In this document: piece by piece, positions 2,793-59,000 of the stretch
How the letters are laid out: each line of letters begins with the position of its first letter
Numbering within the stretch: the stretch's first letter is position 1
NCBI RefSeq assembly: GCF_008831285.2
Contig: NC_045149.1
Span: 9,202,417 to 9,266,416 of the forward strand
Reading direction: 5' to 3'
Length of the DNA stretch: 64,000 bases
Origin: Nymphaea colorata
Taxonomy: Eukaryota > Streptophyta > Magnoliopsida > Nymphaeales > Nymphaeaceae
The notes under the pieces: generated by a model
Told to the model about the DNA's origin: nothing
Database searches by the model: none
The model's input: only the letters and a program-made list of their open reading frames with translations
Program-made: the position numbers and the translations under genes

Positions 2793-5700
2793 GTTAAACT
2801 CTCCAAGTACTTCTGCAATTAGTTTCGATGTTATGGGCCAAAATCTTCTTTTCTCTCAGGTATTTCTTGGCATTATTCTGTCCAGTTCTTTTTCTTCCTT
2901 TAATGTTCTTGATTCATGTATATGATCTGTTAGAATATGAAAAAAATTGCATGCTTCAATATTTAGATTCATCGTATTTTTCTTCACCAATCTTTTGTAA
3001 TGAGCACAAAATTAATCTTTCCCCTGTAAATAGGATCCAAATTCAAAGCATTTGGGGACTACTTTGTGGGATGCCTCCATGGTATTCGTTAAATTCTTGG
3101 TAAGATCTTTGGTTTTTATGTAACAAGTGGTGATCATTTTTTTTCCACCACTACACATCTTACAATTTCTCAATGTTGTACTTAGAAATGTGAAGTCGAC
3201 CAAAAATTTTTTGCTTGGGAGATGAACAGAATTCTAGTCACGATGGTTTATCTAACCTGATGAAACTGAATTGTCTTTGGTGCTTATGTGTTCTTATTTT
3301 CAAGATATTTCTTTTCACATATATGAGTAGTTGTCATCAGGGCACTTGCTAAGATATCTAGTTGTTTGGGCATGCTCTCTCCTTATTTCTCTCTCTGCGC
3401 CTTAACAGATCCTTTAGGAAATGAGTGGTCCCTCTGTCACAGGTCTTTGCAATGTAATGGTCCTCCTATGTCATACAAGTCTTTCAATTACTCAACTTGC
3501 AAGAATCGTGGATGTTTGAAAGGAAAACAAAAAGGAATATAGAGAAAACCTGAGGCCACGAGATTGGAATCAAATTTTAATCCCTCATACTGCAATCAGC
3601 TCATTTCATCAATAGAGCCCTTTGTAGGATCAGAGCACGTCAAGACACACTTTGACAAGGTCTTCTTCATTTGCATAGAATAACTTGAATTATCAGATGC
3701 ACCTTAAAGACTAGCAGGAGAATAATCTCATAGGCCAAGTTGCAGACCTTTTGATCACAGTGAATGGTTCTCTGTATTTTCTGATCTATGTGCAGTGTTG
3801 TTTGTGGATTATGTGCTTATAGTAAGTAGTTAGTTGGGTAGACTTTGGTAGAGTTTTACCAATACTTGATCCTCAATGTTGAACTTGGTGCTTGTCCACC
3901 CATTTCTTCATTATCTTAGTTGCCTTACTCAAAAATGTCTGTGCCAGATTTATTTGCTTGAGTCAGTCTTGCACAAACTAATAGACCAAGGATGAACAAT
4001 TTTTGTACAACAAGAGGATGCCATGATAAATGGTTGTTGTCATGTGGCTTGTTCAAAGGGTTTGTGACTTGAAGATTTACTCTTCTATAAATTGCAGCAG
4101 AATTGATTTACATATAGGAGTTTCACCAAGTCTTTAAGATTAGCACTTACAAAGTGCCTTAAAAATTACTGTAGCTAGTTGTTCATGCACTCCGGTTGCT
4201 CGTCCATCTGTAGGTGACAGTTTGTTGAGAAAAGTAGATCAAAGCCAAGTAGTTGAAACACTTCACACCAGATCTGTTGCATGAAGTGAGCATCGGAATC
4301 ATGAACCATTTGGAACTCCCCAATGCTTCACAGTGCAGTTGACAAACAATTCTATTGTTTTCTTTTAAGGCACTCTTTGGAAGATGGAAATATACAGGAG
4401 TTGGTAGGGGTGGGTGCACCCCCCATCAATAAGACCTCGGCATATTTAAGGAATCATAACTAACTACCACCAAAATTGTGTTGATCTGTCTGCCTTCAAT
4501 AAACTATTATTAAAGCCCATAAAGATGCTTTCTCAGAGATGTTATAGAATGGTCAACTAAGTCAGATGGGTACTTCAGTAAGGTCCACGTACCCGTGTCG
4601 CCGTACCCATATCCAAAATGGGTACTTTGACACTTGGGTACCTATAGATCCAAACTGCTTAATTTTACTTTGATTTAATTTTTTCCACCTTACTTTTTAT
4701 TCTATTATTTGGATGTGAAAATTCGATTGATGTTCATATTTGACTAGGGGGCTGCTTGCTTGTTCATATGTTTAAAGTTTTTCATAGGTTTCTTAAACAC
4801 ACTGTTGCAAGAGCCGTTGATATATATTTTCTATGTTATTTATTTGATTATGTTGATGTATATTCTTTATTTCGATACATATTTTCTAAGTATTTTTTAT
4901 TGTTTATATATATATACAGCCGTACCCCCGCACCCAAGTTTTTTGAAAATGGTCAGTATCCGTACCCGCACCGGTACCCGTACCCGTACCTATGTGACAT
5001 AGATGGTCAAAGATGCGAGATTGGTTGTCTTTTCATTAGTTCCATGTCCTTGCCCGCAAATGAGACATGTTTGCATCTGCCCCTCAAAATTGCTTTTTTT
5101 TTAAAAAAACTAATAGCATGCCTTCAATAAGTACTAAAGATCACTCTTGACTTGAGTGTCTTACCCTAAAAGTGTCATGGCACTTTTAAGCAGTTTTTTG
5201 CAAAGATTATCCTATTACAACACAAGGGCACATTCTTCTTTTGTCAGACCTCGAGTCTTCCCTGCTTTTGCTATTGACGTGAGGTGTTGACCCATTGAGT
5301 ATTGATTCATTTCTTTGAATATGCAATTAAAAAGAGAGCCCTCTAGTTGCACTGCTGAGGTCTCCATCCATGTGGTTGCTATTCCAAAGCAAAGTCAAAC
5401 TTGAGCAAAACTTCCTGCCAACAAGCCTACTTGGGGCTAAATTTTTTGTGTTAGAACGTATCTCACCACAGAAAAAATGATTCTAGAGCTTGGTCTGGCA
5501 GATCCTAACCTATCCCTAGTTGGCTTTTGTTTGGATCCTAAAATACCAAGAGCTAGGACAACTGGTAAGTGCTAAACATTTTTGAAAATCTTTGCTATTG
5601 AACTTTTCTTAAGTCTTTCTGGACACACTTGGACTGTTATAATTCTCCTCTTTGATGCATGCATGTTTGTGCATTTGGGACCTTAAAATTGGCTTTACAG

Positions 5701-8700
5701 CTCTGGTACCAACTCTAAAACTCAACCTAAACTAACCCAAGTGCCTGATCTAACAGATCCCATCTTATCTCATATCAGGCTTCAGCTTGTACTATGTACA
5801 TTAAAAGGTTACTGTTGAACAGAAAAAGCACAGGGAACACAAAAGGTAACATGGAAAACCCTCAACACGAGGAAAAAACCACGATATTAGGAAATGATTC
5901 CGACGCTCACCAGCTGTCGGTCCCTCTCTCTCTCCTAAATCTCATTCCACTTTAAATTAGGGTTACACAGGTTACTTAAATAGGACCCAACATGGACTAC
6001 CCCTTTAGGATGGGTTGGATCGGGTCCAAACCTGGACCCAGTCATACATAACACGTCAACACTCCCCCTCAAGTTGGGCATATAGGTCGAACATGCTCAA
6101 CTTGAATACATTTCTCTCAAATGAAGTAGATGGCAAGGCCTTGATCAGTGCATCAGCTGTTTGATTTTCGGACTTCATGTAGGTAGGATAAACTCTTTGG
6201 CATCAATCTCCACATGCTTCGTTGTATCATGTCACACCAGATTGTTGGCCAAGTTGATTACAGAATTGTTATCACAATACATCTTCATTGGACCCTCAAT
6301 TTCGAGGTCAGTCAATAGCACTTTTAGGTTTCAGCCACAACAGCTCAGCTACAACCCTATATTCAGCCTTAGCACTAGAGCGGGAGCAAACAACCTATCT
6401 CTTACTTCTCCACACCACAAGTTTTCCTCCCAAGTACATACAATAACATGAGGTGGATCTTCTGGTATCCACACATCCTACCTAGTCAGCATCTGAATAA
6501 CCTAATCTCAAAGGAGTCTTGCTTAACATACAAAAGACCCTTGCCAGGACTCCTCTTTAAGTAACATAAAATCTTGTCAGTTGCTTTTAAGTGAACATTC
6601 GCGGGTGCACGCATAAACTGACTCATAACGTTCACAGCAAAGGTAATATCAAGTCTAATAGGAGTGAGATAAATGAACTTCTCAACAAAACATTGATATC
6701 TTCTATTTGTTTCTTCACAAAGAGGCTCCTTATATTTGAGGCTAAGTTTGTTTCTAGCATCTATAGGAGTAAAAGCAGGTGTACACCCAAGTTTCTTAAT
6801 TTACTTTAATAAATCTAGAGTGTACTTTCTTTGATTTAACACAAGACTTGTGCATGACCTAGCAATTCAATGCCAAGGAAATATTTTAACTTGCCAAGGT
6901 CCTTGAGGTCAAACTCAATAGCCAACAGTTTCTTTGACTTCGTTATTTCATCTTCATCGTTACTTGTGACAATCATTTATCAACATATACCAATAGAATA
7001 GTTACCTTGCGCTCCTTTCTCACAAAGAGGGTGTGATCCCCATTCTCTTGATGACATGTTGTCTCATTACAAGTCTAGTCATTCAAACCACGCCCAGGAA
7101 CATTGCTTGAGCCCATACAACGCTTTCTTCAACCTGCAGCATTTTCCAAGTTCCTCATATCCTGGAGGCATGTACATATATACTTCCTCATCGAGGTCTC
7201 CATTTAGAAATGTGTTCTTAATATCTAGTTGGTACATCTCCCGCTCCTTTACTACTGCTAAGGAGATAATTCTGCTGGTCTTCATCTTTGCAACATGAGC
7301 AAACGTTTCCAAGTAGTCATTTCCATATTTTTGACTAAACCACTTGGCAACCAAGCGAGCTTTGTACATTGCCACACTTCCATCTGGCTTATATTTAACA
7401 GTGTAGACCTACTTGGATCCTACAAGATGGGCCGTTTCAGGGATATTTACCACTTCCCACGTTCTATTTTTATTCAATGCTTTCATTTCTTCTTGCATCG
7501 CATAAGCCCACTTGGGATTACTTTGAGTCTCAATAACAGTTCTGGGAATCACATGTATAAAAAGAAAAGATATAAAACATTTGTAGTTCTTGCTCAATTT
7601 ATAACATGATATGAAATTACCAATAGGGTGTTGAGTACATGACCTAATACCCTTTCTGAAAGCAATGGGTAACTCTTCATTTCCAACTTCCACGACTTGG
7701 GGGAAGGTGTAGGATTTGGATTGGGATCAGTGTCACCAGTCAACTCACCTGCTAACTCTGTTGCAATTGATCTTTCCCTAGAATAAACCTGCCCAAACAA
7801 GCGGTCACATTCCTCATTTCCAATTGAGCAATCATCATCCTTTTTGTGCTCCAGAAAGTCTGTAAATTCCTGTTTGTACTCCAGAAAGTCTGTACACTGA
7901 ATCTCTTGAGGAGAATACTTTTTCCTTCTTGTGAACCTTTCTCCCTGAAGAGAATTCTCACCAAAATAGGAAACATGTTCTAGGAAGGGGACATCTTTGG
8001 TTACATATACATGACCAGGTGGAATGGTCTAGATTCTTATATCCTTTTTGAGTAGGAGAATAATCATGCCCTTAATTGACCTGGGGTCAAGTTTTTTTAT
8101 AATGGGATTGTGATGTGAATAAAACAGACACAATCAAAAACCCGAGGTAGAAGGGAAAAAGGTTCACGACTCTTTGCTAACATAGAATGAGGCGTACGCC
8201 CATTCAACACACTACTAGGCATACGGTGTATGTCACACGGATACGTGGGATTAGCCCATGTATCCGTATCGATACGCCGATACGGCGATCTGGATACAGA
8301 TACTTCAAGTCTTCACGGATACGTTTGGATCGGGTTTGGTCAGACCCGATCCAAACCTTAAAAAAATGATCTGTTAAACGTTAAATTAGGTCGACCTTCT
8401 TCCTTTTTCACCCGACCTTCTTCCTCTTCACCCGACGAGCGATGGCGGGCGGCAGTGACGACTTCCGGCGACCCACGGTGATGTCCGGTTGTTGCTGGCA
8501 ACAGCCGGCGACAGACAGGTAAGTGGATTTTTTTTTTTCGTTTCGAGTTTAATGTGTTCTTCATTTGGGGGTTTTTAAGGGTTTTCGGATTGCTTCAACT
8601 CATTCACTTTTTGTTGAATGATGTGTGATGCGTGATGGGTTGTTCGTTGATCTTCGTCACTAGATCAAATTGACACCATGCTTTTTCTGTTATTTGTTGT

Positions 8701-11700
8701 ATTTGATTGTGACTGCTTCATTCCTTTTAGTAAAAATGGGAGGGGAACCAACCCCCGCAGCTTTGCTTTGGATATCTATGCATCATCAGATATGAGATAC
8801 CAAGTAGACAATGAACTTGAAGTTGTTAATTCTAGATTCGAAGAACCTTCTATTCCATCAACATGTGAAATTGTTGATGAAGATGAGTCTGAGGACAATG
8901 TGGGCATTGACAATGAGTAGAATGATGAGAATCAACAATGTTTTGTGATAAACAATGTTAATGTTTTGTGATAAACAATGTTTGTTTGTTTGTTTTTTTC
9001 AATTTATATTTTTTTGAGAATATTATATTTGTCGTATCCGCGTATCCGGAAATTGTGAGACTTGCCGTGTCTGCACCCGTATCACCATATCTGCACCTGC
9101 ACTCGTGTGACATAGCATACGGTTAATCAAATACGCATTGGTTAGTGCAGCAACCCCCCCCCCTCCCCCCACAATACTTCTTTGGAAGATGTCATTGTAA
9201 CGAGAGAGCCCTGGTGACATTTAACAACTGACGATTCTTCGTTCAACAACCCCATTTTGAGGAGGGGTATAACCACAAGATGTCTCATGAACAATTCCCC
9301 TTTGCCGAAAGAAACTGTTGACAGAGTAACACGTATACTTATGTGCATTGTTAGAGCGGAAGGCCTGAACAAAAGCTCTAAATTGAGTTTCCACAAGGAT
9401 GACGAAGGTCTCAATGACATTGGGCACTTCACTACAGTCCTTCAACAAGTTCACAAAGGTATTACGAGAGCAATCATCTATAAATATAATAAAGTATTGA
9501 AAACCATGACAAGAGGGAATTTTTTGAAGGCTCCCACACATCTGAATAGATTAAAGTAAATACTTTATTAGAACAACTTGTAGAAACAAGGTATGAAGCC
9601 CTAACATGTTTAGTCAAGATGACAAACATCACATGATAACATGGTCATATCTAGACTGGAAAATAAGTCAGGAAACAACTGTCTAAGCGCTTCAAATGGA
9701 AGATGCCTAAGTCTCATGCCACCGCAAGACAAGCTAAAAGAAGTCCTCTCTACTCTTCTTCATCTTGTTAACCGCCGTCACGAGGGCTATAGCAACACAC
9801 ATGGTAATCGATATAGACCCTCAGAAGCCAAATCAATCACAATCCTCTTCCCCATCACCAAGTCCTGCAACACACAATTATTAGCAGAAAAAATAAGTTT
9901 GCAATTCAGGTCTTTCATAATCTTTCTAATAGACAAGAAGTTTAAGGGAAGGTGAGGAACATGTAAGGCATTATGAACCAAAAACTTGTTTAACAAGGAG
10001 AGACTCCCTTTCTCGACTACAGAGATAGATGAACCATCGGCAAGAGAAACTCGTTCCTTCCCAGAAGAGAGCTTATATTCATGAAAAACCTTAGGTTTCT
10101 GGTCATGTGGTGCGTAGCACCATTATCAACAATCGACGCTCCCACATAAGAATTACCTTTTTCACCAGAGATTACAAGGGCGCGATTGACTTTCACATCA
10201 TCTGATGACTCAACCCGACTAGTATCAATGCAGCTTAGCTATGCGTGAAGCTCAAAAATCTGGTCAGTAGAGATTGTTGGTTTTCCCCTAGTGTAATATC
10301 AGAGATAGTCCCACTAGAAGCAGATGAAGATCCCAACAAAACTCAATGGTGTGACCAGATTGCTTGCAATGAGTACACTTCCAAGAAGGTGGGGAAGCCC
10401 CCATAGGAGCTCGGCTAACAAGAGCGGACCGCTCACTGCATGGAGAACGATCCCCCTCTTTTCCTACCATAACAAGACGTCACTGTTCTTTAGCCTTATT
10501 CTGAGAATAAACATCCTCAATGCTAACCATATCTTCTTAATTAAGAATTTGACTTCTAATGCCTTCGAAATCGTCATTCAACCCAGCCAAGAACATAAAC
10601 ACCCTGTTATTCCATTCCTTGCCCCAGTACTGCATCTGGTCTTGGGGACAACTCCATGTGTTATCAGAATAGTAGTCAAGTTCCTCCCATTTGGATTTTA
10701 CTGCTGCATAAAATTCAGCTGTAGAAAGCTCTCCTTACCGTAGAGCATATACGTCTTTCATCAGCTGATACACACAGACATCCTTTTTTTTCTGACTAAA
10801 CGTTTGTTTTAAGATAACCCACATATCTCGGGCAGTCCTCTTACTAATATCCATGTTTTAACTTGGTTGTCCTCAAGAAACCACATGTGCCACACTGGGC
10901 TAGCCTCAGGTGGTTCAGTCCTCTTTCCATTGACATAGGCAATGCGCCCCAACCAACAATTCCCATAGTGATGGCAGCAGATCAACACAAATAATTATCT
11001 TTGGTGAGTCGAATAATAGTAACTTGAACAGGAATGTTCTTAGTTCTAGGGCTCCCGACATCTAGTTGATACATACAAACAGGGGTTTTCCTCAAATCTT
11101 CCATCTTAATGCAGCAGTAAACCAACAGAGAGTATACGTTTTACTAATGGCTGACGCTACTAAGGAAGAAGCATTAACCGCTGCTTCTCTGCAACAAGTA
11201 CCAGAATCTGCTACGAGTACCAGGAAAAAAGGCAAAGAGGCATGTGGCCAGTGCAGGCCATGACGAAAGCTAAGAAGACGACAGTGGACGATGGTAGTAG
11301 AGGCAAATATCCTTCGGCTGTTGCTGGTCGACATTCAATGAAAAATACAATAGGCGAAACTGTCAATGGGGGCAACACCAGAGCTCCACAGCAGTGGCAG
11401 AGGAGCGACGTTAACACCGGCAGTGGCGAACAACAACGATGCAGGGAACAACAACAATGGTAGCAGGGACACCTGGAACAACAGAGGCAACGTCGGAGCT
11501 TTATGATAGAAAGGAGCGACGAGCGACAGTAGAAAGGGCAACCGGCGACACAACGATGGGCGACGATAGGCAACAGTGAAAAGGGTGACCGGTGACATAG
11601 TTGACTGGTGACACAGCGAGGGCGACGACTGGGAAGACGTAGGCAACAACAACAATTCAAGCGAAGGCAGCAGGATCGCAGGTGACAACTGCAGCTCAGG

Positions 11701-14700
11701 TGACGGCGGAAGAGTCCCAGCGACAACGATGGCAGCTGAGGATGACGTCGTGCAAGAGGACAACGTTGTGTGAGGTGACTACCGGAAACCCCAAAATGTG
11801 GACGACAGAGGACGGCTGGAGACTGAAGGAAAAAAGGTTGGTCTCATGCACGATCAACACCAGCGATGGTCGGATTCACGCCCAAAAAATAAGCTCAGAA
11901 ATTCGGCTTTGATACCATGTTGAACAGAAAAAGCATAGGGAACACAAAAGGTAACGTGGAAAACCCTTAACATGAGGAAAAAAACACAATATTAGGAATT
12001 GATTCTAGCGCTCACCAGCTGCCGGTCCCTCTCTCTCTCTTAAATCTCATTCCACTTCAAATTAGGGTTACACAGGTTATTTAAATAGGACCCAACATGG
12101 ACTGCTCGTTTAGAATGGGTCGGATCGGGTCCAGACCTGGACCCAGTCATACATAACACGTCAGCAGTTACAAATCAGGACAATTGCTAATGTGGGATAT
12201 GTTGAACGTAAAGATGGAAACCTTGAACATTTCTAAAAATTTTTGATATAGGACTATCCTCAAGTCCTTTCTCATATATGTAGGGCACTCAACTCAACAC
12301 TTCCCCTACCCCTCTCCCAACTCCTCCCACAGCCCCGCACCCCCAACCTTCACCACCCCGTGCCCCCACCACATAAGCCCACACTCACTCAACAACATTA
12401 AGGCATATGCATCCACTTGTCTGCAATCTTGGGTCTGAATAATGAATTTGGTTTTGGTGCCTAGTGTAGTATGCCCATAAAAATTAGCAAGGTCCATATC
12501 CATAAACTTTTTGTTAGTGACCCTCATCTAGGAGGCTAAAGAGATACCTTTATCCCCCATTCTGGCCATTGCCCCTACCATGACCATTTTTTTGCACTCT
12601 AGCACTTGATTGATATGCTTGTTTGCTCTTTTTCTTTAGCAGCCAGAGTAGTACCGAAAGTGTTAACTGAAAAAGTTGTTAGGTTTTTCTACTCTTGGCA
12701 TGGAAGTTAACCATATCTAAAACTCGGAGCAGTAAAGAGATCAAAATGTCCTATTTATGGTATGTGCAGCCATCACTATGAGTTCCAAAGGTATTTATGA
12801 GCTCAGAATTTTTTTACTCACGAAAAAAAGAATCAAAAAATTATCCATATGGATATTGGGCCATCTTGGACTTGAAGCAGAGACCTCACTCTTGAAGTAA
12901 ATCATTGCACCTACGATCCAACCAATTGGGTGAGAATCAATAGATTTTTTTGGAGGAGCGATTCATCCTTCTCGAATGCAGCATACAACCCTCCGTTGTA
13001 CTGTGCTCTCCAAGTGTGCTTGTTCCCCTCTTCTTCCTTACCAATGAATGGCAAGTCTTTGTGAAATAACTCCGATGAGAAGAAAAAAGAAGGCGTTAAG
13101 AGACCCTCCTGGCCCAACCCTAGACACTCTAAGATCGTTTTCCAAACCTGCTCCCATCTCGAGTCAAAGATAGATAAATAGACACATCCCATTGCATTGA
13201 TCGGGGGGCGCTCGTAGTGACTAAGGGGGTCGGAGACCAAGAAGTGAGTTATTTATACCAAACATTCTTCTTATGGCTAGATCCAATATCCTGGTCCTTG
13301 TAGAAAAAGAATTTCACATTCTTCCTTTCATTTATGGGAAGGAAAGATTATGGAAATCCTATTGATTGCTGCTTTCTCCAGACCTCCGGGAAAAGCATGA
13401 AAAAAGGCTTGAATGGTCCGATCCCTCGGTCACCCCTTTCATTTTGGGGTGATCTCGTTTTTTTTGGTATGTGAAAATGCGTTGTTAGGTGCTCCGTTTT
13501 TCCCATTCAGGCCAAACCTAAACCCGTGCTCGAAAGTAGTTGTCCATACATTGATAAAGGATGTATGGATTCTCGAGAAGAGTGGAGCCGTGGTAAACAC
13601 CCCCCCCCCTTCCTCCCCGAACCGCCCAGATGTGTATGTGTTTGTTTCTAAGTTCATGTTAAATATGCAAATATTCATTATAAACTCATAAAGGGCATGG
13701 ATACGAATTTAGTAGTGTAAAACTTTGGATTTTATTTAGAAAAAACAGACACTTTGTTTCTAAGTTCATGTTAAACATGCAAATATTCATTATAAGCTTA
13801 TAAAGGGCAAGGATATGAACTTAGCGGTGTAAAACTTCAGATTTTATTTAGAAAAAACAGACACTTTGGGTTGTGAGTTAATCACACCATTTTATTGAGA
13901 CAATGAAATGAGAGTCTACATATTTCCTCAAAAAACTAAAAAGAAAGCATATCTCAAACTTCAATTACTTTGAGAAGGAAAACAATCAAAAGGAAAAAGA
14001 AGGATGACTGCTAGCACTTTTTCAATACTTTACTTTGAACTGTCAAAAATGTAATAGAATTTGAACATCAAATTAGGCAAAGGCTGCATATGGCATATAT
14101 TTTTGCTAGCCTTGCTATCATTTGTTACAACAAAGATAAACTAAAACTCACACTTCACATTCAAATGCAATGAAACCCTAAAAATTTTGGACATTTTTTT
14201 GTAGAAAAAGGAACACTTAGGGTTGTCAGAGTCATTCAAACCATGTCCATTTGATTGAAATAATTAAATCAGAGGTGACATCTACTCTCAAATAATAATA
14301 AGAATAAACACAGTTCAATTACTTCGAGGAAGACATTAATTGAACTATCAAAAGCAAAAAGAAAGATGACCGCTAGTAGTTCTTCAATACCTTGCTTTGA
14401 ACTGTCAAACTGTAATAGAATGTAGTTGTGTAAATTGATTGAGAAAGGCTGCATACGGCAACTACTTTTGCTAGATTTGGTACCATTTATTGTGATGAAG
14501 ATAAACAACAATTCTTGCTCCACATTCGTAAACCATGTGATGAGTAGGGGTCTATCTCTACCAAGCTTGCTTTTCAAAAATAACAAACTATGAGTTAAAA
14601 CATAAAAGCTTACAGCATGTGTAAGGTGTCATTACCTAGCAAAATCAGTGAGAAACAAAATATACTTGTCATTGTGCTCATTTTAAATTTACAATGAAGA

Positions 14701-20124: not shown

Positions 20125-20157
<33 letters not shown>

Positions 20158-23049: not shown

Positions 23050-23930
23050 GCGTGGTGTGTATCAGCTTCTTAGTCTAATATTTTAGCATTCAGCCATGAG
23101 TCATATACATCATTTCTAACATTAAGTGTTGCATGTGGCTCCTTTAAATTCTTCAACCTGAGCTCATCAAAAACAACATGTCGTGAAATATGCACACGTC
23201 CAGTCTTTGGATCGTAGCAGCGATAACCTTTATAATTTTCTGCATAACCCACAAATCTACACATGACAACTCGATCTTGAAACTTATTTCTCAAAGAAAC
23301 GTCAACATGAACATAACAGATGCATCCAAAAACACGCAGCTCATCATAATTTGGGTGTTCTTGATGTAAAATAAAAAATGGAGATTTTCCTTCAAACATG
23401 GATAGTGGCAGACAATTAATAACATGAACAACAGTATGGAAGGGTTTAGTCTATAAAGTCATGGGCACATCAATGTTGTGCATCATACTGAGAGCACTTT
23501 CAACTATCTGCCTATGTTTTCTTTCAGCAATACCATTATGTTGTGGTGTGTATGAACATGAAAACTGTCCAGTGATCCCATGATTTAGTAAGTACTCAGT
23601 AAATTCATTTGAAATGAACTCGTCACCACCATCACATTGGAAATGCACAATATTACTAGAGTATTTGTTTGGGACTAAGGCGTGGAATTGAGTGAACAAG
23701 CGGAAAACTTCTGATTTGCTTTTCATGAAGTGAATCCAAGTGTAAGGAGAATAAGAATCAATGAAAACAACATAATATTTACTCTTGGAAGAAGAAGAAA
23801 TAGGAGCAGACCCCCAAACATCAGAATAAAAGGTGTCAAATAACTTCGAAGCTCGCTTATTTATTGATTGAAAAGAAAGAACATGACTCTTACAAATATG
23901 ACAACTTGAGCACATGCTAGACTCATTGAC
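23050..23930 (-). pseudogene. Copia B integrase
   Basis: At 23451-23915 the core shows a YVVFIDSYSPYTW block, the FQCDGGDEF block (catalytic Asp) and YTPQHNGIAERKHR (catalytic Glu). The zinc-binding N-terminal end (CSSCHICKSH) is at about 23890. At 23070-23399 the C-terminal domain follows with LRVFGCICYVHV and DPKTGRVHISRHVVFDE. A frameshift or stop near 23400-23450 separates the two. Confidence 0.87.
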
Positions 23931-24009
23931 CAGACTTAGACTTGACTTTTGTAATAGTCCGTCTGCAACAAGACTTCGAATGAAAGACCGACTACAATGT
24001 GCTAAACCA

Positions 24010-24880
24010 CCGTGCTAAAGAGATGACATATCATACTTTGTGATATTGACTTCACTATAACTGGGAAAGGATAAATATGAAACACAAGACTTAGACACTT
24101 TTGGAGCTAACATACATGTCTCATTTACGAACACCCTTAGCGAATGTCTTCTTGGTTTGAGCATCCTTAACATAAACAGAAGGAGTAAACTCAACAGAGG
24201 AATGAGTATCATCAATAAGCTTTGACACAGAAATGATATTTTTCTTGACATTTGAAACAACAAGAACATTCTTTAAGGGTATTAAGGAATGATCCATGGA
24301 TAAGTGTGCATTTCCAATATGTGATATTTTGTAATGGGAACCATCTCCTGTGACAACTGAGTTGGTTAAATAAGGGAGAGCAATAGAAAGCTTATTTGCG
24401 TCACCAGTTACATGAGCTGCAGCACCAGAATCCACATGTCATTGTCCTTCCTCATTGTGCTTGAGATTGACTTTAGACAACACTGTCATTAAAATCTATT
24501 GCACATCAGAGTAAATGTTTGATGCCACAGTCGTATTTGAAATAGGTGATCTTGTTGCCTTATTGTTACGCCTGACCTGCTTTCCCTTGTTCTGAGGGTC
24601 ATGCCAACATTCTTACTTCACATGACCTCTCTTATTGCAATAAAAACAAGTAGATATTTTTTGTGGTATATTTTTCTGTGCATTTGTGTTAGGTGTAGGA
24701 ATGATACATCTCCCCATTCCTACCTGTGAGTTGCAAATTCTTGGACGACTTCCTTGCAAAGCATGGGTCCCAGTGACCAACACATTGTGACTGCCAGAAT
24801 TAATTAATTCATGTCATTGTACACGACTCGCTTCATGATGAATCCATTTTGCTTTTAGGTCTTCAAAAGAGGGAATAACA
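24010..24880 (-). pseudogene. Copia B gag C-terminus with CCHC knuckle, and protease
   Basis: A CX2CX4HX4C knuckle near 24610-24650 begins CFYCNKRGH and carries one stop codon inside. The protease active site follows with MDSGAAAHVTG at about 24400-24435, Asp-Ser-Gly intact. The GAG-pre-integrase part is at 24015-24269. Confidence 0.8.
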
Positions 24881-25789: not shown

Positions 25790-25872
25790 GTCACCGTACC
25801 GTCGTACCAAGATTTGTACCCGTACCTGTTTTCCCGTATCCATACCTGCACCCGTACCCAGGTGACATAGTC
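25790..25872. mobile_element. hAT-like family I, right-end fragment
   Basis: GTACCC-type repeats lead to the end CCAGGTGACATAG, the family I terminus (reverse: CTATGTCACC). The copia C gag resumes immediately after it. No left end or matching TCATTGGA duplication was found, so its extent is unknown. Confidence 0.65.
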
Positions 25873-28125: not shown

Positions 28126-29955
28126 ATGCACAATTCATCTCTTTCTAAATTTGTTAGTAAATCTCATTTGGGATATCATATGTGCAAATTTATTGATGCA
28201 TTGTCAGCTATTTCTATTCCTATCTCCCATGAACAAGCTCCTTTGGACTCTAAGTGGTACCAAGCAATGAAGGAAGAGATGGACTCCCTAATGTCATGCC
28301 ACACTTGGGAACTTGTTGAACCTCCAACTGGATCAAATATTGTTGGCTCGAAATGAGTCTTCACTATCAAGTATAACTCTGATGGTATAGTCGAGCAACA
28401 CAAGGCACGGTTGGTAGCAAAATGGTACACACAAATGTATGGTATTGATTTATTTGAAACTTTCTTCTCAATGGCACGTTTGAGTAGTATACGACTAATT
28501 ATACCTGTTGCAGTTCATCATGGATGGAATATGTACTAATTAGATGTAAAAAATGTCTTTTTGTATGGAGATTTATATAAAGCAGTTTATATGCAGTAAC
28601 CGCCAGACTTTGAGAAATAGGAGGAGTGTACTAAGGTATGTTTGTTAAAAGAGGCTATATACGATTGAAGCAAAGTCTCAAAGCATGATTTCAGAAATTG
28701 TGTGATGTTGTATCTAAGTTTGGGTTTCATAGATCTTCTTTATATCATTCATTGTTCATAAAAATGACTTCATGAGGTATGGCCAGGCTTTGAGAATCAA
28801 CAAAGCACTCGCGAAGAGAAGCGTGACAGGGGGAGTGTACCAAGGTATGTTTGTTAAAAAATGTTATATACGGTTTGAAGCAGAGTCTCAGAGCATGGTT
28901 TCAAAATTTGTGTGATATTGTATCCAAGTTCGAGGTTTCATATATCTCTTTTAGATCATTTATTGTTCATAAAAAGGACTTCATGAGATATGGTGGTTAT
29001 AGTGATATATGTGGATGACATCATTTTAACTGGTGACAACGAGCAAGAAATATAAGACACAAAGAAGTATCTCCAACAACACTTTGTTACTAAAGACCTT
29101 AGCTCTCTACGTTACTTCTTGGGAATAGAAGTAGCAAGAAGTAAAAAATGTTTAGTTTTTTTCCAAAGAAAATATGTTCTTCATTTGCTACAAGAGACAT
29201 ATATGACTGGAACTAAACCGACATCTATTCCTATGAACTACCGTATTTACTTATATGATGATAAATTTGAACATGTGGATAGCAAATCATATAGGTCACT
29301 GATTGGGAAGCTCCTCCTATATGTAACCATTACTCAGCTTAATATATCTTTTGTAGTAGAAAAACTGAGTCAGTTTATGGACAAGCCAAGAAAAGTACAT
29401 TGGGAGCAGCTATGTTTGAAATTGCTAAAAAGTTCTCTTGGAAAATGTATATTATTTAGAAAAAATTCATCACTCCAGATAGAAACTTATTTTGATGCAA
29501 ATTATGCAGACTCTATTAATGACAGAAAGTCCACTACGGAATTCTGCATTTTTTTTAGAGGTAACTTAGTTTCTTGGTGAAGTAAAAACAAGTTGTTGTG
29601 GCTCGATCCAGTGCAGAGTCCTAGCCATGACTCAAACTGTCATTGAAATCACATAGGTGAGAGTCATGCTAGAAGGTCTTGAATTCAAATAGAACTACCT
29701 ATAAAAATGCACTGTGACAATAAAACAGCTACTTATATAGCCAATAATAATTTTGTCTTCTACGAACAGACCAAACATATCGAGGTGGATTGCCACTATA
29801 TTTTTAGAAACTTAGTTCAAGCATGGTTTATTTCTACTAAATATGTTGCTTCTGAAGATCAAACTGCAGATATATTTACTAAATCTCTTTCTATATCAGA
29901 TTTAATGAAGCGTTGTAACAAGCTGAGCATGATAGACATCTATGCTCCAGCTTGA
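28126..29955 (+). pseudogene. Copia C reverse transcriptase and RNase H
   Basis: RT begins with WYQAMKEEMDSLMSCHTWELV (28255-28320); the GSK context is followed by a stop. The catalytic YVDD at 29008-29019 is intact (YVDDIILTGDN). RNase H follows with the FLGIEVARSKK block (29119), DANYADSINDRKST and, at 29707-29955, MHCDNKTATYIANN and TKHIEVDCH. The frame is broken several times, including by an internal duplication at 28628-29010. Confidence 0.85.
28628..29010 (+). repeat. Internal direct duplication in copia C RT, offset about 205 bp
   Basis: The segment from ACTAAGGTATGTTTGTTAAA to GACTTCATGAGGTATGG (28630-28783) is repeated from CCAAGGTATGTTTGTTAAA to GACTTCATGAGATATGG (about 28839-28992) with scattered differences. 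Confidence 0.85.
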
Positions 29956-44090: not shown

Positions 44091-44153
<63 letters not shown>

Positions 44154-45098: not shown

Positions 45099-45172
45099 TA
45101 GGGCTGGGCGTCGGGCCGGGCCGGGCCCGACAGCCAGGCTTGGGTCAACCCGGCCTGTTTAGGCCCGATAAA

Positions 45173-45240
<68 letters not shown>

Positions 45241-47416: not shown

Positions 47417-47419
<3 letters not shown>

Positions 47420-47451
<32 letters not shown>
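47420..47451. repeat. (CT)n microsatellite in leader
   Basis: About 15 CT units; a shorter CT run lies at 47239-47259. CT-rich leaders are common upstream of plant genes. Confidence 0.9.
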
Positions 47452-47452
<1 letters not shown>

Positions 47453-47883
47453 TTTTCTTGCTATTGATATTTGTGGAGTGGTGGGAGGTGTTGGAATCTG
47501 GTGGTGATGGTGGTGGTAGTGGTCACAGGGATACATTTTGAGGTTTGGTTTCCTGTTTATTTGGAAGTTCGGGAGAGTTGTCTAACGAGAAGCATGTGTA
47601 GGGTTGCATTTTCTTTGTCGTCTTTCCTCCTCTCCGTTTGTAGGCGGTGGCTGTGTTGGAATTTTAAAGATTATTTGATTTTTCTGGAGTGTGTGCGTGC
47701 GGCTGACTTTTGGCGGGGATGAGTGATGGAGTAGACTGATGGAAGGTGGTTTTGGGTGGTTGGCTCTGAATGCAGTAGTGGCTGTGTTGGTGTTGGCATT
47801 GGCGGTGGTCTGCGGTAGTGGTGGCGGTGGTGGTGATCTCATCGTCGGACGTGTTGATAAGAGGCTACAGTAAACCCTAAAAA

Positions 47884-49219: not shown

Positions 49220-49310
<91 letters not shown>

Positions 49311-52300
49311 CACACACACACACACACTCTGGAAGGATTATTAAGCAATATATAAGGTAGCAAATATGCTCAGTTATGTTTGAAATTTCTTTGGCACAAA
49401 TCTAGTTCCAAGTTCTAAGTCACTCCTATGTATTAGATATTTAGATGTTATAAACTACCCCCTTATTTCCATACATCATCACCTGTTGGACATGCATATT
49501 GAGCATTTTGTACTAGGCCAAATGACATTCTGTCTCATATCTTGCTTCCATTTTGGTGCCTAGAAGGTTTACAAAATGGGAGACAAGATAGTAATTATTA
49601 ATAATTAGGTTGAAGGACATTTTGTTGCTGTTCCCTACAAAATTTTTGGATACTGGGTTGCTCCCATGCTATTCCCATGTATGAGTTGTTACAGTTTGTT
49701 GTGATCCAAAAAGTACCTTTCAGAAATTTCTATTTTTCAGTTTGTTGTCTGTTTGTCTAGCCATGTTTAGATTTTACGGCAGCATTAGTTTTTTTTTTCC
49801 ATCTTTCACCATCAATCAATAGGAGTTCATCATTCAGGCTATTCTATTTGCTAGATTGTGCGGTATGGATACTCAACTGTTGTAAATGAATGGACTAGAT
49901 CCATTTGATCATTTTTTAGCCAAATAACTAAAACAACTGTAAATCGTTTAAAAGTAATAATATCGTAGCATTTCTGTCAACATCTGCTTGTTGCACATCT
50001 TCTAGGAAGAAATGATTCATTCAAAGCAAGTGTAGCAACTAGGAACCAAACTTCAGGGACAGGTATAATCTATGCATGGGCTCCTCAAATATTTTCCCTA
50101 TGCTGAAGAAAGGCCCTATTCTGGTATTGCCTTTTGCAATGCACAATTGCCTACCTCAGCAGATTCTTTGTAAGGTGTTTCTTTCTTCATTTTGCTTCTC
50201 ATTGAGAAAACCTTGAAGTTTTAAGAAATGGAAAATTTTTGAAGTAATACAAAAAGTTATGATGTAATATATCCTTGACTTTTTTTTTTTTTTGCAATAT
50301 AAGAAGAAGTGAAGAAAAATTGGAAGAACTTTTAAGAAGTAAGAGAGAGGAATAGTGTTTGCATTTTTAAGATATACTAAAAAGTCCTTTTCACCAATCT
50401 CACTTAATATTGTTGATAGATATTAACATTATTGATGGGAAATTGCAATACATAATCAGGCACACACATGCATACACATATGGGCTTTTGAAATATGTGG
50501 GCTGAGTAAATATGAGAGTTATGTAGACTAATTTATAATCTGTCCAACCAAATTGATTCGTGGTTTACGAAGTGTCACATATAAATTTAGGTTTTTAAAG
50601 TTAAAAGCTATGTCACATGGGTGCGGATATGGTACAGGTATGGGTACGGAGATATGGGTTCAGGTACTGTGATTTTGAAAATTACGGGTACGCGGGTACA
50701 GCAAAATTTTAAATTCTCAAAAATAATCAAATGAAAAAAAAAAAGCATTAATAGTCTTATAATCTACAAAAAGATCTCAAAATTTAAAAAAAAAATGAGA
50801 GGAAAATATAGAATCTTATTGGAAGGGAAATATAAAAGAAGGGAAAAATAAAAAATTAGAGAAAAAATTAAGTTGGAAAATATAATTTAAAGTTTTAAAA
50901 TGCAGCCGTACCCGTTCCCGTGTCGCCGTACTCACGTACCCGACATGGGTACCTGGGCAAAATAGGCGTACCTGTGTCACACAGGTTAAAAGTATAAGAT
51001 GCCATTTAATTTTTTGAAAAAGTAACTTTGCACAGATATGATACCTTGTGAACTGTATAAATCAAGTTGATCAGAGTCAGATGAATCAGTTTATGTATTT
51101 CATAAAACATTATATGTGTATGTGTGTGTGGTTTTGAGAGAGAGAGAGAGAGGGAGAGAGACAGAACTACTGGTCTGATTAGCAGGTTGCTTGCACCAAT
51201 CAATGGTCGAGAAAGGGAGAGAGAGGGTGTCGAAATGATGAATTTTTTCCAGCTATAATTTGCAGTAGGGGTGTGGGCATCGGGCCGGGCCGGCCCGCTA
51301 AGACCCGGCCCGATAATATTGTCGGGCCGGGTACCGGGCCCGGCCACCAAAAGTCAGGCCCCGCCCGGCCCGCCGCGTAGAGGGAGACGAGACGGGAAGG
51401 GAGAGCCGGAGAGGGGGAGCGGAGAGGGAGAGGAGGAGGGAGAGTGGAGAGGGAGAGGGGGAGCGGACAGGGAGAGGAGGAGCGGACAGGGAGAGGAGGA
51501 GGGAGAGGGAGCAGAGAGGGAGAGGGATAGGGAGACAGGAAGGGAGAGGGGGAGCAGAGAGGGGGAGTGGAGAAGGAGGGGAGTGAGCGGGGGACGGGGA
51601 TGGAGGCGGAGAGGGAGAGGGAAAAGGGAGAGGGAGAGGGAGCAAAGAGGGAGAGGAAGAGGGGGAGCGGAGAGGGAGGGGAGCGAGCGGGGGACGGAGG
51701 CGGAGAGGGAGCAGAGAGGAAGAGGAAGAGGGAGAGGGAGAGGGAAAAGGGAGAGGGAGAGGGAGACGGGAAGGGAGAGGGATCAGAGAGGGAGACGGGA
51801 AGAGAGAGGGAGGGGAGCGAGCGCCGCAGGCCGCCCAACCGCCCGAGGGCGGGAGTCGGGCCGGGCCGGGCCGCCCTATCGGGCCCGGTCCGGCGGAGGC
51901 CCGGCCCGACGCCCAGGCCTAATTTGCAGTATCAAGAACTTCAGTTCATACAACATCTATATGTCAAACCAACAACTAGTTGGACCAAATTGCAATTGCT
52001 GGTTTGGCGACTAGTCCCTGTCATATAAGTTGCCAGGGACTATTTTCATTAGTTGAGTACTAACCAATGCCTGGTTGTTGATTGACTAGAGAATCAGAGA
52101 TTTTGTACCTAAAATAAGTTTGTTGGATTTTTTGCATTTTTGAATTGTATATGTTGTGCTTTTCTTTTTTGACTTGTTTAACCATATGTGTACATGGTTT
52201 ATGTGCTTGATATATGTTTTTATTTTTCCCTAATAGTGTGTATATGTGTGTGTGTGTGTGAGAATCTTTAGAATCTATATCACAATATACAAACATTGCA

Positions 52301-53620
52301 GTATATATAGGATTTACAAGTTTGTGTGTATGTGTGTGCACATGTGCATTTGTGTACTTTTTATACTTCATTGAATTTAATTTTTGGTCAACAAACCTGG
52401 ACTCACTCAAATGATCTAATCCCAATTCATCATTTCTAGGTTCTTGGTCTTCCTGTCTTCAACTTCCAAATTCGACAACTAAGCATGCTTAATGCTACTG
52501 TTAACTTCTTTCATACTTGAAATGAGTTGTTTTGACATGATTTTAGTAGAACTTCTTCGTCCTTGAGTCTCTGTGTTCCAGGACTTTGAATTGTATATAA
52601 TTAAGGTGAAGCCCATCTTAAGATGGATAATTTAAGATAATTAGAAGCAGGACATGGTAAGATTGCTCCTGGAAGTCTGCCTAACCTTTTCTGTCAACAA
52701 ATATATTTAGTTCTCCATGAAGTATCTTATGCAAAAGTATGACGTTTGGCTTATGAATCATATTCATCATGTAGGTTTTTTCATGTGTTGTTTTCATTTA
52801 ATGATGTCTTATGGAGTATTACCATGTTTGCACTACATTTTGCAGAATGAATGATTTGTGCAAGAACTGTAAGCGTCCTGGGCATTATGCAAGGGAGTGC
52901 CCAAATGTTGCTGTCTGCAACAACTGTGGTCTTCCTGGGTAAAACAAGAAATGCTAAACTTAGATAATCTCTGGGTTTTGATCTTTTTTCTCATAGACTC
53001 TTTTCCTTAGCAAGTTCCTGGCATGCCAGATTCATATTAGTTGTATATTCTCCAGGCACATTGCTGCTGAATGCAGTACAAAGTCTCTCTGCTGGAATTG
53101 TAGGGAGCCAGGCCATGTCGCAAGTCAGTGCTCGAACGAAGCCATATGTCATACTTGTGGAAAATCCGGCCACCTTGCTAGAGCATGTCCTGCACCACCA
53201 TTGCCGCCTGGTGATATGAGGTTATGTAATAACTGTTACAAGCAGGGGCACATTGCTGCTGACTGTACAAATGAAAAGGCCTGCAACAATTGCCGGAAGA
53301 CAGGCCATTTGGCACGTGATTGCCCTAATGAGCCAGTTTGCAATTTGTGTAACGTTGCTGGCCATTTTGCGAGGCGTTGCCCCAAGTTTCAGATGATGGG
53401 AGATAGAGTTGGTGCTGGCGCTGGCACTGGCGCTGGCGGCATGGGGAGAGGCAGTGCATTCCGGGATGTAATATGCAGAAGCTGTAATCAAGTGGGTCAT
53501 ATGAGTAGGGATTGCATGGGACCCATGATGATATGTCACAACTGTGGAGGCCGTGGGCATATGGCATTTGAATGTCCATCTGGTAGGCTTATTGATCGTG
53601 GACCTCCTCGAAGGTACTAA
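47884..53620 (+). CDS. CCHC zinc-knuckle nucleic-acid-binding protein, nine knuckles
   Basis: Three exons (47884-48029, 52846-52938, 53056-53620) give 267 residues. Nine CX2CX4HX4C knuckles follow each other, for example [28 protein letters not shown] and [14 protein letters not shown]. This is the plant relative of CNBP/Gis2-type proteins, which bind single-stranded RNA or DNA; the exact role here is not shown. The N-terminus has five Ser-Gln pairs and then an Arg/Ser-rich part ([11 protein letters not shown]); such RS-like tails suggest a link to RNA processing. A Gly/Ala-rich spacer (GAGAGTGAGG) stands between knuckles 7 and 8, and a Gly-Pro-Pro-Arg-Arg-Tyr end follows. The second knuckle is split by an intron inside the Gly codon before its His. 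The 4.8-kb first intron holds two MITEs and an (AT)n run. The ATG is the first of this frame after the leader. Confidence 0.93.
49222..49327. repeat. (AT)n and (CA)n microsatellite
   Basis: About 80 bases of uninterrupted AT dinucleotides, then TTTA and nine CA units, in the first intron of the zinc-knuckle gene. Confidence 0.93.
50608..50984. mobile_element. Non-autonomous hAT-like MITE, family I, copy 3 (377 bp)
   Basis: The ends are CTATGTCACATGGGT and, reversed, CTGTGTGACACAGGT. A perfect 8-bp duplication GTTAAAAG flanks it (50600-50607 and 50985-50992). GGGTAC/GTACCC clusters stand near both ends; the centre is A-rich. Confidence 0.93.
51266..51921. mobile_element. Non-autonomous hAT-like MITE, family II, copy 2, with purine-rich expansion (656 bp)
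   Basis: The ends are TAGGGGTGTGGGCATCGGGCC and, reversed, TAGGCCTGGGCGTCGGGCC. A perfect 8-bp duplication ATTTGCAG flanks it (51258-51265 and 51922-51929). GGCCCGG clusters lie at both ends. The middle (about 51380-51815) is almost pure purine on the + strand, built of GGGAGA/GGGGAG/GGAGGA units. The long open frames crossing it on both strands are low-complexity artefacts. Confidence 0.92.
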
Positions 53621-53965
53621 ACTGGTATATCTGGCCCTTTTGTTGGAGGCAAACCTGTGCTTTATGGATTGTCGGTCCAGATTTTTTTGTTTTTATTAGT
53701 ATCCGAGCTTGGTGAATTTCTGTCTGTTGTTGACCTGCATTGCAATTGCAAATAGTGGATGAAACTTCTTCCATATATTTGGGAAGTTTGTGTTAAATTT
53801 GTGACCAGGATCTTTAATTTTTTCTTCCATGTTCCAGTGTTATCTGTTTTTAATCCTTTTTTCTCCAAACCGTTTGCATGACTAAGAACACCCTTTGCGG
53901 AAGATGGTACCTTATGCAATACCAGTAGAGCATACACGGTACTCTGCACTTATTTCATGTGTTAT

Positions 53966-54260
53966 CAGTTTGATCTGGTGGTGCTATACTTCTACATGTG
54001 CATCTAATGACTTGGATGGTCTTAGGTCTCTGCTTCAGTTCCTCTTTGCATATGATTAAGTTGCCTCTTTGTCTTGTTTCTTAAGATTAATAAAACTGGT
54101 TAACTCTACACACTTAATTTCAATTGTTTAGTTTGATCTATTAGTCATGTTTCAACTTTCATGTCTACTCGTGTGTAGCATCAAATGACTTGGATGATCT
54201 TAGGTCTCTGCCGCAGTTTCATTTTCCATGATGAAGTTGCGGCTTTGTCTTCTTCTTAAA
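53966..54260. repeat. Diverged direct duplication downstream of the zinc-knuckle gene, offset about 180 bp
   Basis: ATGACTTGGATGRTCTTAGG appears at about 54007 and 54187. Before each is a GATCT..GGTG or TTAGTCATG-type block with CTAC.TGTG, and after each a TCTCTGC..CAGTT and GTTGC.GCTTTGTCTT block. Confidence 0.75.
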
Positions 54261-56269: not shown

Positions 56270-56663
56270 TTTTTTCAAATGTCCACGATAGTTCGAGCAG
56301 CCCGAATATCCAAAATCACTATATACCCTTCGTCATTTCTTGTTTGTCGTGGCGAAGGCCGTGGCGGGCGGATGAAGTGTGATAGAGAGGAAAGAGAAGT
56401 CACTCAGGAGAGAGAGCGTCTGAGAATGTACAAGGAAAGAGGAGCGAATCAAGGGTTCGGGGATATGTCGGTCGATCTTCAGCCTGAGTTTCCCTTGCTG
56501 GGGGTCGGGATATGCAAGGATAAAAGGGAAGCGATGGCTGAACCGACGCTGCCAGGAGGATCGCCTGCTTCGTGAGCCAAGATTGTTGCTGGTACTGGCT
56601 TGGTGAGTTCTTCGGATGAGCAGCCGCTGCGAGTGGAGGAGGTAGAAGGCTGTCCTCGGGATC

Positions 56664-57937
56664 ATGAATGAAGATTTCGAGCAGATGGCCAAACCCTTCA
56701 GTGGTCGGTGGTGGGGTGTTTTTATGGAGCGTCGGCAAAGGTTAGTATTGACTATAGCTTTGCTTTCAAAGAGCTTGCGCGCTTGTGGGGCAGCAAAGTC
56801 ACCCCCAAATTCACGTCTCTTGGGCGTGGGGACTTTCTTGTTGGGGTCGCCAGCAAAGCGGAGCTTGAGGTTGTCCTTCAGAGGAAAAACATGGTCGGTG
56901 GCAGGGAAAATGATGGTGGCCTATAGATGGAAAGTCGAAATCGAGATGAAAATGGCTAGGGAGATTAAGACTTCGATATGGATTTGTTTGCCAGGGCTCA
57001 GTCCTTTGCTTTGGAACCTTGTATTTTTCCTGTGGTTGCGGTCCTTGCTGATTGTCTTCTGGGCGATCTCCTGGGGGTTGATCTGCAAACTAGAAACATT
57101 TCTCGCAATGGTTTTGCCAGGCTGCTAGTCGACCTCCCACTTCAGGCTGAACTAAAGCTGGATGTGGATCTCTGTGTTTAAAAAGAATGCTTCAAGCAGC
57201 CTGTCATCTGCGAAGGCCGCACCCCGATTGTGTGGAATCAATGCTCATGGCATATCCACCTGTCCCTTCTGTATTGCTCATGAGCAGAGAAATCAAAAGG
57301 GCAGAGATGATCAGCATACCCAGTGGAACTCTCACTACAATCAAAGGGCTCAGTTGCCTTTGAATCAGAGCCCAACGCTCAATGTTGGAAATGTATTTCA
57401 ATTTTTGTCTGAAAAGCAAGCCGCTGATCAAGAGCGACCAGTAGTTCCAAACAATGGTCAGGGCAGCATGCCTCCAGCGGTTCAATGGATCCAGCAGCTG
57501 TCTGACTTCACGAGGTACACCAAGAATAAGTGAGGACAAAAGAATCAGATAGCTGATTTCGAGCAAGGGCTGAGCATAGAAATCCTTCTGACAGACCGAT
57601 GTCCAATTCGTTTGGTGTACTTCCTGACAATATCAACTTGCCCTTTCAGGTAGAGGTTCCTCCAGGATTTGAATTTCAGGCTAAAACAAAGGAGACTAAG
57701 GAAATAAATGTCATCTTGGACTCCCCCAACATATCCTCTCAATCAAGGGCATGGAAAACTCGACCTCTTCGTAGCCCAATCAGTAGGGAAAGAGGTCATA
57801 AAGGTGCTAGGGGGAGGGATGTTATTCAAGACATCAACAATTCATTGATAGCCCGTTTGGCAGTAGATGGTGTTCGGGGTAAGCTCAAACGTTTAACTTT
57901 GAAACCCAAGGGAATAAGGGGGGTTTCCCATAATTGA
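56664..57937 (+). pseudogene. LINE ORF1 (DUF4283-like, zinc-knuckle-like), frameshifted
   Basis: In changing frames the sequence gives a FAFKELARLWG..FTSLGRGDFLVGV block (56748-56850), an LGDLLGVDLQTRNISR segment followed by GFARLLVD (57050-57130, matching the usual LG..D..T....R..FAR pattern), a CGINAHGISTC knuckle-like segment near 57230, and a C-terminal open part at 57599-57937. In plant L1 elements ORF1 encodes the RNA-binding protein. Confidence 0.7.
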
Positions 57938-57940
57938 GTA

Positions 57941-59000
57941 ATGAAATTTGTTGCTTGGAACTTATGTCACACGGGTAGGTGTCGGCACATCTCCAAAAAT
58001 GTAAGTGTGCGGTGTGTCGCCGTGTAGCGAGAATATTTATCTGTTATTATTAAATTATTATTATAAATAAATAAATAAATATATATATAATATTAAGAAT
58101 ATACTCTACTATACATGAATTATTCAATATTATATATTATATACAAGTATGAACATTAAACAAGTAAACAAAAACACAACTCTAGTCAAATGCGAGTTGG
58201 GTGCATGTCTAAAATGAACAAAAATGATCTGGTACAGTCAGCCGCACACGACTCTTGTTGACTTGTGTTGGGTGCAACACCCGCACTCCATTCGTGTTGA
58301 CACGGGTACATCAGTCATTTTACAGAGTTCGTGTGACTTAGATTGGAACATTAGGGGCCTAGTTTGACTTGCTGCTTTCCTTTTGTGTGACCGGCTATGT
58401 TTTCCCTATTTGATCCTATGTTGACAGAGAAAGATTTTTATGGTTTGAAGCTGCAATGGCAACAATATGCTTGATGCAGCAACCAGCTTCATTGTAAAGA
58501 TAACTCGTGGGATGGGACCCCTCCATAATCCGTGGTAGTATAGTTCCAATGGATGCAGGCTTGATTTTCCTCCAATGTACTGTGCAGAGTAATAACAACC
58601 AATTTCTGCTGGGAGGTCTGTACCTGTCAACCGACTGGAAAGCTAGGGGTTTGGAGGTTAACGTCCTTAATTGCTTAGTGCCTACAATAATCCTTGCCTC
58701 CTCATGGGCGAATTCAACTCTATGAAGCAGCCATGTGACAAAACTGGTAAGGCTCTGAACCACGATGCGTGTAGAGACTTTAACATGTTTCTAGCGAATT
58801 GCAGGTTTGCCACCCTCCATGACCCAACCCGCCGTTTCGCTTGGTCGAACAACCAGCAAGGTCAGGGTAGAGTGTTATGTTGATTGGATTGGAGCTGCAT
58901 TAATGACAGATGGAAGTCGCTGTAGGGCCTTGGAAGCAGTCTTTCAGTCCTTAACAGGGATGTATTTGATCATAGTGCGCTAATGGTTGACGTGAACTTT
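57941..59000 (+). pseudogene. LINE ORF2, endonuclease (APE-like) region, broken
   Basis: ORF2 starts at 57941 with MKFVAWN and, after the inserted MITE, continues IRGLV. Near 58700 it has LLMGEFNSMKQPCDK (family GDFN: Asp replaced by Glu), then FNMFLANCRFATL and RRFAWSNNQQGQGRV at about 58790-58875. Stops and shifts are frequent. Confidence 0.75.
57962..58341. mobile_element. Non-autonomous hAT-like MITE, family I, copy 4 (380 bp)
   Basis: The ends are TTATGTCACACGGGT and, reversed, CTAAGTCACACGA. The 8-bp duplication is CTTGGAAC (57954-57961) and ATTGGAAC (58342-58349), one mismatch. It interrupts the LINE ORF2 start exactly between an AWN and an IRG segment. Subterminal repeats are degenerate (GTGTCG, GGGTGC types). 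Confidence 0.88.

Follow-up and report, generated by a model that had tools for sequence, protein, structure and literature searches.

The 64,000-nt stretch of the Nymphaea colorata genome analysed here, called the window (NC_045149.1; G000:C12:9202417-9266416), contains four short elements with common inverted ends that had been described, from the letters alone, as a miniature hAT-like transposon family. Copy 1 occupies 4557-5002 (446 bp, forward strand) and is flanked by the octamer ATGGTCAA at 4549-4556 and 5003-5010, giving a span of 4549..5010. Copy 2 lies at 8228-9115 (888 bp, span 8220..9123, forward strand) with the duplication CATACGGT on both sides, and copy 3 at 50608-50984 (377 bp, span 50600..50992, reverse strand) with GTTAAAAG on both sides. 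Copy 4, at 57962-58341 (380 bp, span 57954..58349, strand unset), sits inside a decayed long interspersed nuclear element (LINE) between the flanks CTTGGAAC and ATTGGAAC. These positions, taken from the window sequence, are those of the original prediction, and its claim that each copy carries an 8-bp duplication of its own holds as well, the octamers being identical in copies 1-3 and matching at 7 of 8 bases in copy 4. The inverted ends are indeed common to the four, as imperfect repeats of about 15 bp, with the eight ends one to four bases off CTATGTCACACGGGT. At lengths of 3-7 or 9-12 bp, no full flank match was found for any of the four. A fifth, one-sided piece ending at 25872 had also been proposed; a one-sided right end is present (25856..25870, reverse strand, CTATGTCACCTGGGT read inward), but it stops at 25870. 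A GTACCC/GTATCC array lies just upstream of it, and no partner for it was found in the window, even with relaxed ends.

Inverted ends and octamers of this kind might arise by chance in an AT-rich plant window. When up to five mismatches were allowed in each 15-bp end, and a single mismatch in the octamer, the window yielded exactly the four elements. Among 1147 first-order Markov sequences of window length, 1012 contained no such element, 126 contained one and 9 contained two, so that 135 simulated windows do hold one or two by chance, against a real count of four that exceeds the simulated maximum. The end motif itself occurs 12 times in the window at three mismatches (0.78 expected). A search without an assumed end sequence (exact octamer, at least 11 of 14 inverted matches, 100-4000 bp) recovered copies 1 and 2 only. 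Across the genome (407,766,735 bases in 783 contigs), the 15-bp end is matched at up to two mismatches 5,737 times (2,877 + 2,860), compared with 411 (198 + 213) for the reversed control motif in the same search; the excess of 5,326 ends would correspond to about 2,660 elements if both ends showed in each.

Copy 4 provides a further argument. When its flanks are joined with one octamer retained, they read MKFVAWNIRGL in one frame, which we take to be the sequence with which plant LINE endonuclease frames usually begin, with the insertion falling between N and I (MKFVAWN/IRGL). Downstream, at 59460-60176, a reverse transcriptase domain is matched (PF00078, 1.1e-17). The LINE is itself decayed; the joined frame reaches a stop two residues on. 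Because copy 4 interrupts the LINE frame, it represents an insertion into pre-existing sequence. Simulations, genome counts and the LINE interruption together refute a chance origin of the ends and octamers, to which we attach a negligible probability.

Duplication length and target preference were examined at 100 listed genome sites, each carrying the exact 15-bp end; they all lie on contigs 1-5, being the first listed and not a random draw. Twenty sites were covered over 8 kb; the other 80 were covered inward for about 780 bp, and three of these were extended. A site was considered bounded when a second end matched at least 7 of its first 9 bases and the flanking octamers agreed at 7 or more of 8 positions. 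This collection of copies, which follows the check proposed with the original prediction, gave 56 of the 100 sites bounded by an 8-bp duplication, 40 of them perfectly, whereas 0.38% of 20,000 octamers drawn at random from these loci would be accepted. No two of the 56 octamers are alike. The bounded elements fall into lengths of 309-422 bp (40) and 562-808 bp (14), with one of 3,276 bp and one of 3,504 bp. Exact flank pairings at the 100 sites number 41 at 8 bp and one each at 4 and 7 bp, with none at 9 or 10 bp. Two pairs of sites on contig 1, L019/L033 and L030/L031, lie megabases apart and each share 20 identical flanking bases; these identical flanks indicate that the family copies were duplicated together with the DNA around them.

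The octamers of the 56 sites show a preference of the form S-T-T-n-n-A-A-S, with T at position 2 in 31 and A at position 7 in 29. The pattern nTnnnnAn fits 18 of them (5.6 expected, p 5e-6), and 14 in a 38-element set that includes the window's four (3.7 expected). Three of the four window copies conform to it, the octamer of copy 2, CATACGGT, being the one that does not. The same nTnnnnAn target pattern is reported for Hermes in two accounts (PMC10368747, PMC2803484).

The GTACCC/GTATCC arrays described near the ends are real, although copy 4 has only three sites of the GGRTRC/GYAYCC type, all in its right half and none in its first 200 bp. Copy 1 carries a left GGGTAC/GTACCC array at 4568..4641 (forward strand) and a right GTACCC/GTATCC array at 4922..4985 (reverse strand), and copy 3 a left GGGTAC/GGGTGC array at 50619..50699 (forward strand). 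We counted GGRTRC/GYAYCC in 41 elements, namely the window's four, three longer relatives (E42, E55 and E09, see below) and the 34 bounded elements among the first 60 sites. There are 248 occurrences in the 145 bp that adjoin the 15-bp ends on their inner side, compared with a mean of 13 and a maximum of 23 in 200 mononucleotide shuffles and with 12 for the reversed motif. At 15-105 bp, 207 of 232 occurrences point inward; at 105-160 bp there are 16, 14 of them outward, and at 160-300 bp a single one. Subterminal repeats are described for Hermes and other hAT elements, and in Hermes they are bound by the BED domain (PMC10368747). By analogy, the clustered GGRTRC repeats are putative transposase-binding sites.

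The original prediction had proposed looking for a longer relative with the same ends and a hAT transposase. Such relatives exist. At sites L042 and L055 a dimerisation domain lies near the exact ends, and extending upstream recovered two elements: E42 (C2:69146-72421, 3,276 bp), with the perfect duplication GTCATATG on both sides, and E55 (C2:21319261-21322764, 3,504 bp), with the perfect duplication GTTAAAAC on both sides. A third, E09, is a 3,552-bp stretch within L009 (G000:C1:1669320-1677319) that has two such ends but the unmatched flanks CCTGTGGC and GGTTTAAC. At least three of the 100 listed sites thus lead to a transposase-bearing element, a lower bound since most sites were covered over only about 780 bp. 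A 459-aa frame of E42 matches PF04937 (DUF659, 4.5e-41) and PF05699 (hAT dimerisation, 6.9e-13), and a separate 184-aa frame bears a CCHC pattern. E55 has the same two domains in separate frames (PF04937, 3e-37; PF05699, 1.4e-8), as does E09 (PF04937, 8.5e-43; PF05699, 2.1e-8). BED-like CCHC patterns lie at nt 902 of E42 and nt 1180 of E55. The E42 459-aa frame also matches Hermes chains in the PDB (9.4e-5), in its C-terminal part only, and the glutamate of its CCERNW motif aligns with residue 572 of Hermes chain 8edg as counted from the alignment, which we take to be the catalytic glutamate. Of possible bearing on the catalytic D, D, E, the motifs SDGW and TDNA are present in both E42 and E55 as sequence patterns.

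Two candidates were set aside at this stage. E09 was dropped as a full parent, its flanks being different, and on account of these unmatched flanks it is used as a lineage marker only. L061 resembles a deleted relative of the E55 type, but it has no second end or duplication within 5.8 kb. By eye, the left flank of E09 reads as retrotransposon RNase-H and its right flank is unmatched, as if the element had been rearranged between two copies.

These relatives bear on the superfamily. P elements also make 8-bp duplications, and duplication length alone would fit MITEs (miniature inverted-repeat transposable elements) of that superfamily. DUF659 and P-element transposases are moreover placed in one RNase-H clade in PMC3985635, and DUF659 itself is assigned there to hAT transposases, mostly in green plants. 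However, all three transposase-bearing relatives carry the hAT dimerisation domain, which P elements lack according to the same source, and the target duplications follow nTnnnnAn. The dimerisation domain refutes a P-element origin for the E42, E55 and E09 lineages, and for the family as a whole such an origin is highly improbable.

Mutator-like elements have typical duplications of 9 bp (8-10 bp) and a MULE transposase, and some have short ends, so that a Mutator-like family with shortened 8-bp duplications could be considered. The exact pairings at the listed sites, with none at 9 or 10 bp, speak against this, as do the encoded transposases, which are hAT; hAT domains between the same ends refute a Mutator-like origin for the same three lineages, and elsewhere in the family we regard it as equally remote. 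The assignment to hAT made in the original prediction is therefore borne out by the 8-bp duplications, the hAT-type target preference and the DUF659 RNase-H-like and hAT dimerisation domains of the longer relatives.

Comparison of short and long elements reveals how the miniatures are related to the transposase-bearing forms. Alignment identifies copy 2 as a relative of the E55 type that has undergone internal deletion: its bases 2-413 correspond to E55 2-424 (81%) and its bases 575-870 to E55 3179-3475 (92%), leaving out the central 2.75 kb of E55, with about 160 bp at the junction that have no E55 match. A relic of the transposase C-terminal tail (the last 43 codons before the stop) is found at 8789..8917 on the forward strand, 84% identical to the E55 tail, which in E55 follows the hAT dimerisation domain beyond an intron-like gap. 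The 18 codons preceding the relic (8735-8788) show no match to E55. The 61-aa frame of copy 2 gave no Pfam match and no BLASTP match to the E09 tail, and its last 43 residues are recognisable only through E42 and E55. A second relic, of the transposase 5' region, lies at 8442..8536 on the forward strand, aligning to E55 and to E42 235-329 (76%); it contains a splice-donor-like CAG/GTAAGT, a candidate donor site. Copy 1 matches E09 only in its right 88 bp (86% identical to the E09 right end), and the last 56 bp of the fifth, one-sided piece are 77% identical to the same end. The left 137 bp of copy 3 match the E42 right end (71%), with the E42 match at that one end only, and over its full length copy 3 matches site L064 (69%).

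Several miniature classes were distinguished in the family, whose ends are CTATGTCAC (tip CTATGT). Class B, comprising 16 of the first 34 bounded elements, consists of the E42 right end (about 125-150 bp) followed, in 15 of the 16, by the E42 1533-1577 piece, and beyond it, where detected, by 30-90 bp of the E42 left end. The 1533-1577 piece encodes KSVEYLKGLFIEII, part of DUF659, and is inverted relative to both ends in class B. This 45-bp DUF659 relic occurs in 24 of the 54 short bounded elements, always in the same orientation; of its carriers, 17 come from the 23 elements that satisfy the class-B end rule and the other 7 from outside them. One common inverted insert argues for a single founder. 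Class A2 (L022, L068) joins E09 1-92, 946-1018 and 3358-3552 in order. Internal deletion is thus seen in copy 2 from the E55 type, in relic-bearing class B from the E42 type and in class A2 from the E09 type. Kimura distances to the class consensus range from 3.4 to 16.6% in class B (n=16) and from 3.4 to 9.0% in six of the seven class-A elements, the seventh (L011, distance 0.45) being left out as misassigned; the two class-A2 copies are 1.6% apart. These distances suggest repeated waves of spread, and the 'long-lived' family of the original prediction fits the spread among the class-B copies together with the closeness of the class-A2 pair.

Several observations weigh against reading the four copies as miniatures of one hAT family. 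No intact transposase was found among the relatives reached from the 100 listed sites: E42 has a cluster of in-frame stops between its two frames, and the E55 transposase gene is spread over several frames. The N-terminal frames of E42 and E09, scanned as single frames, gave no Pfam BED match. The YARNG tip is common in hAT elements, and the family tip CTATG departs from it. The sites were not drawn at random, and 44 of the 100 showed no bounded partner in the stretch seen, including 7 that were covered over 8 kb, E09 among them. The 248 repeat occurrences come from related copies, are common by descent within a class and are not independent. 

The proposed density of one copy per about 13 kb proves local to the window and not general: ends at up to two mismatches occur once per 71 kb in the genome and once per 9 kb in the window (about eightfold denser than the genome mean), that is, seven ends where 0.9 are predicted per 64 kb from the genome mean. 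One of these seven is a second, opposite-strand reading of the right tip of copy 3, which is palindromic. As the window was selected on account of the copies noticed in it, the comparison is post hoc.

Copy 4 has no internal match at 1e-6 in the 100 listed exact-end sites, having only its ends and its duplication in common with the family; as it shares only its ends with the rest, no parent is assigned to it. It might belong to a different hAT family that shares just the terminal 15-20 bp with the other copies, a reading favored further by the four mismatches in its right end and its weak repeat array. Yet its tips and duplication length are those of the other copies, its octamer fits nTnnnnAn, and the sample was drawn by exact 15-bp ends, so that closer kin of an element whose ends match at 14/15 and 11/15 could have been missed. 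We consider a separate family for copy 4 possible but unlikely.

Taking these points into account, the four copies are very probably non-autonomous miniatures (MITEs) belonging to a plant hAT family in which longer relatives code for a hAT transposase of the DUF659 type. The size of the bounded elements (54 of 56 at 309-808 bp) and the number of end matches in the genome are in line with MITEs. As a plausible mechanism, transposase from a full-length element would use its N-terminal zinc finger to bind both the inverted tips and the GGRTRC clusters, and would cut a short copy out and insert it at staggered 8-bp targets. The short forms would arise by internal deletion, probably during excision-gap repair as known from transposon biology, and each miniature class would have expanded from a single founder or a few, the waves differing in age.

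The window contains several other features. A protein with seven CCHC zinc knuckles is encoded at 52997-53617 (PF00098, 4e-39), about 420 bp of purine-rich GGGAGA-type repeats, open in several reading frames, occupy 51395-51812, and two 249-bp copies, 92% identical, are found 6.1 kb apart at 5813-6061 and 11918-12166. A retrotransposon integrase core is matched at 23451-24011 (PF00665, at the cut-off) and a Copia-type reverse transcriptase at 29056-29577 (PF07727, just below the cut-off).

hAT MITEs are well known in plants, as earlier reports describe (PMC7385995, PMC12595863). BniHAT-1 and BniHAT-2 of Brassica nigra have lengths of 673 and 666 bp, inverted ends of 25 and 12 bp, duplications of 8 bp and 434 and 331 copies (PMC7385995); the Nymphaea elements resemble them in being short (309-808 bp), in their inverted ends and 8-bp duplications and in their high copy number. 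They differ in having transposase-bearing relatives with perfect duplications in the same genome, onto which several miniature classes map piecewise. Hermes, the house fly hAT element, shares the 8-bp nTnnnnAn duplications and short subterminal repeats (PMC10368747) as well as the C-terminal sequence match to its PDB chains, whereas the Nymphaea core is of the plant DUF659 type and its clustered repeat is GGRTRC rather than the AAG(T/C) of Hermes. PF04937 and PF05699 within one element are likewise a feature of DUF659-type plant hAT transposases; that account covers the proteins rather than their ends or miniature forms (PMC3985635).

A partial literature search returned no work treating DUF659, MITEs and terminal inverted repeats together. 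Six variants of the family end, searched in the literature to the same partial extent, had a tobacco small-RNA (CTATGTTGCTCGG) as their sole match, and the family may be catalogued in Repbase or P-MITE. Viral contigs scanned with CTATGTCACACGGGTACG gave no match, as expected for a plant element. The tobacco sequence is the 21-nt small RNA 'nta-miR390c', AGCTATGTTGCTCGGACTCTC (PMC3237444). Counted by eye, it agrees with the E42 left end CTATGTCACACGGACGC at 13 of 17 bases, starting at its third base. It was published as a miRNA and not as a transposon end (PMC3237444), and the link is a lead only; on this sequence resemblance, nta-miR390c may be transposon-derived. In PMC3237444, nta-miR390c is also closer to the family tip than to the neighbouring miR390a/b entries, which begin AAGCTCAGGAGGGATAG. 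A broader proposal, which we put forward tentatively and hold to be somewhat less probable than its opposite, is that DUF659-type hAT elements tipped with CTATGT have given rise to MITEs throughout plants and gone largely unrecognised as their source, that end-derived small RNAs such as nta-miR390c are transposon-derived and not microRNAs, and that the most successful miniature class in this genome goes back to a single abnormal repair event, in which 45 bp of the transposase gene were copied in inverted orientation between the two ends.

The elements in the window belong to a real and well-supported hAT MITE family, an ordinary kind of plant element, and they leave the general picture of plant MITEs unchanged. 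What the family offers is the presence of transposase lineages, miniature derivatives and deletion junctions in one genome, which makes the birth of hAT MITEs directly readable. Two routes of birth are legible, simple deletion in copy 2 and an inverted filler in class B, and DUF659-type hAT transposases are linked to a specific end sequence and a target preference.

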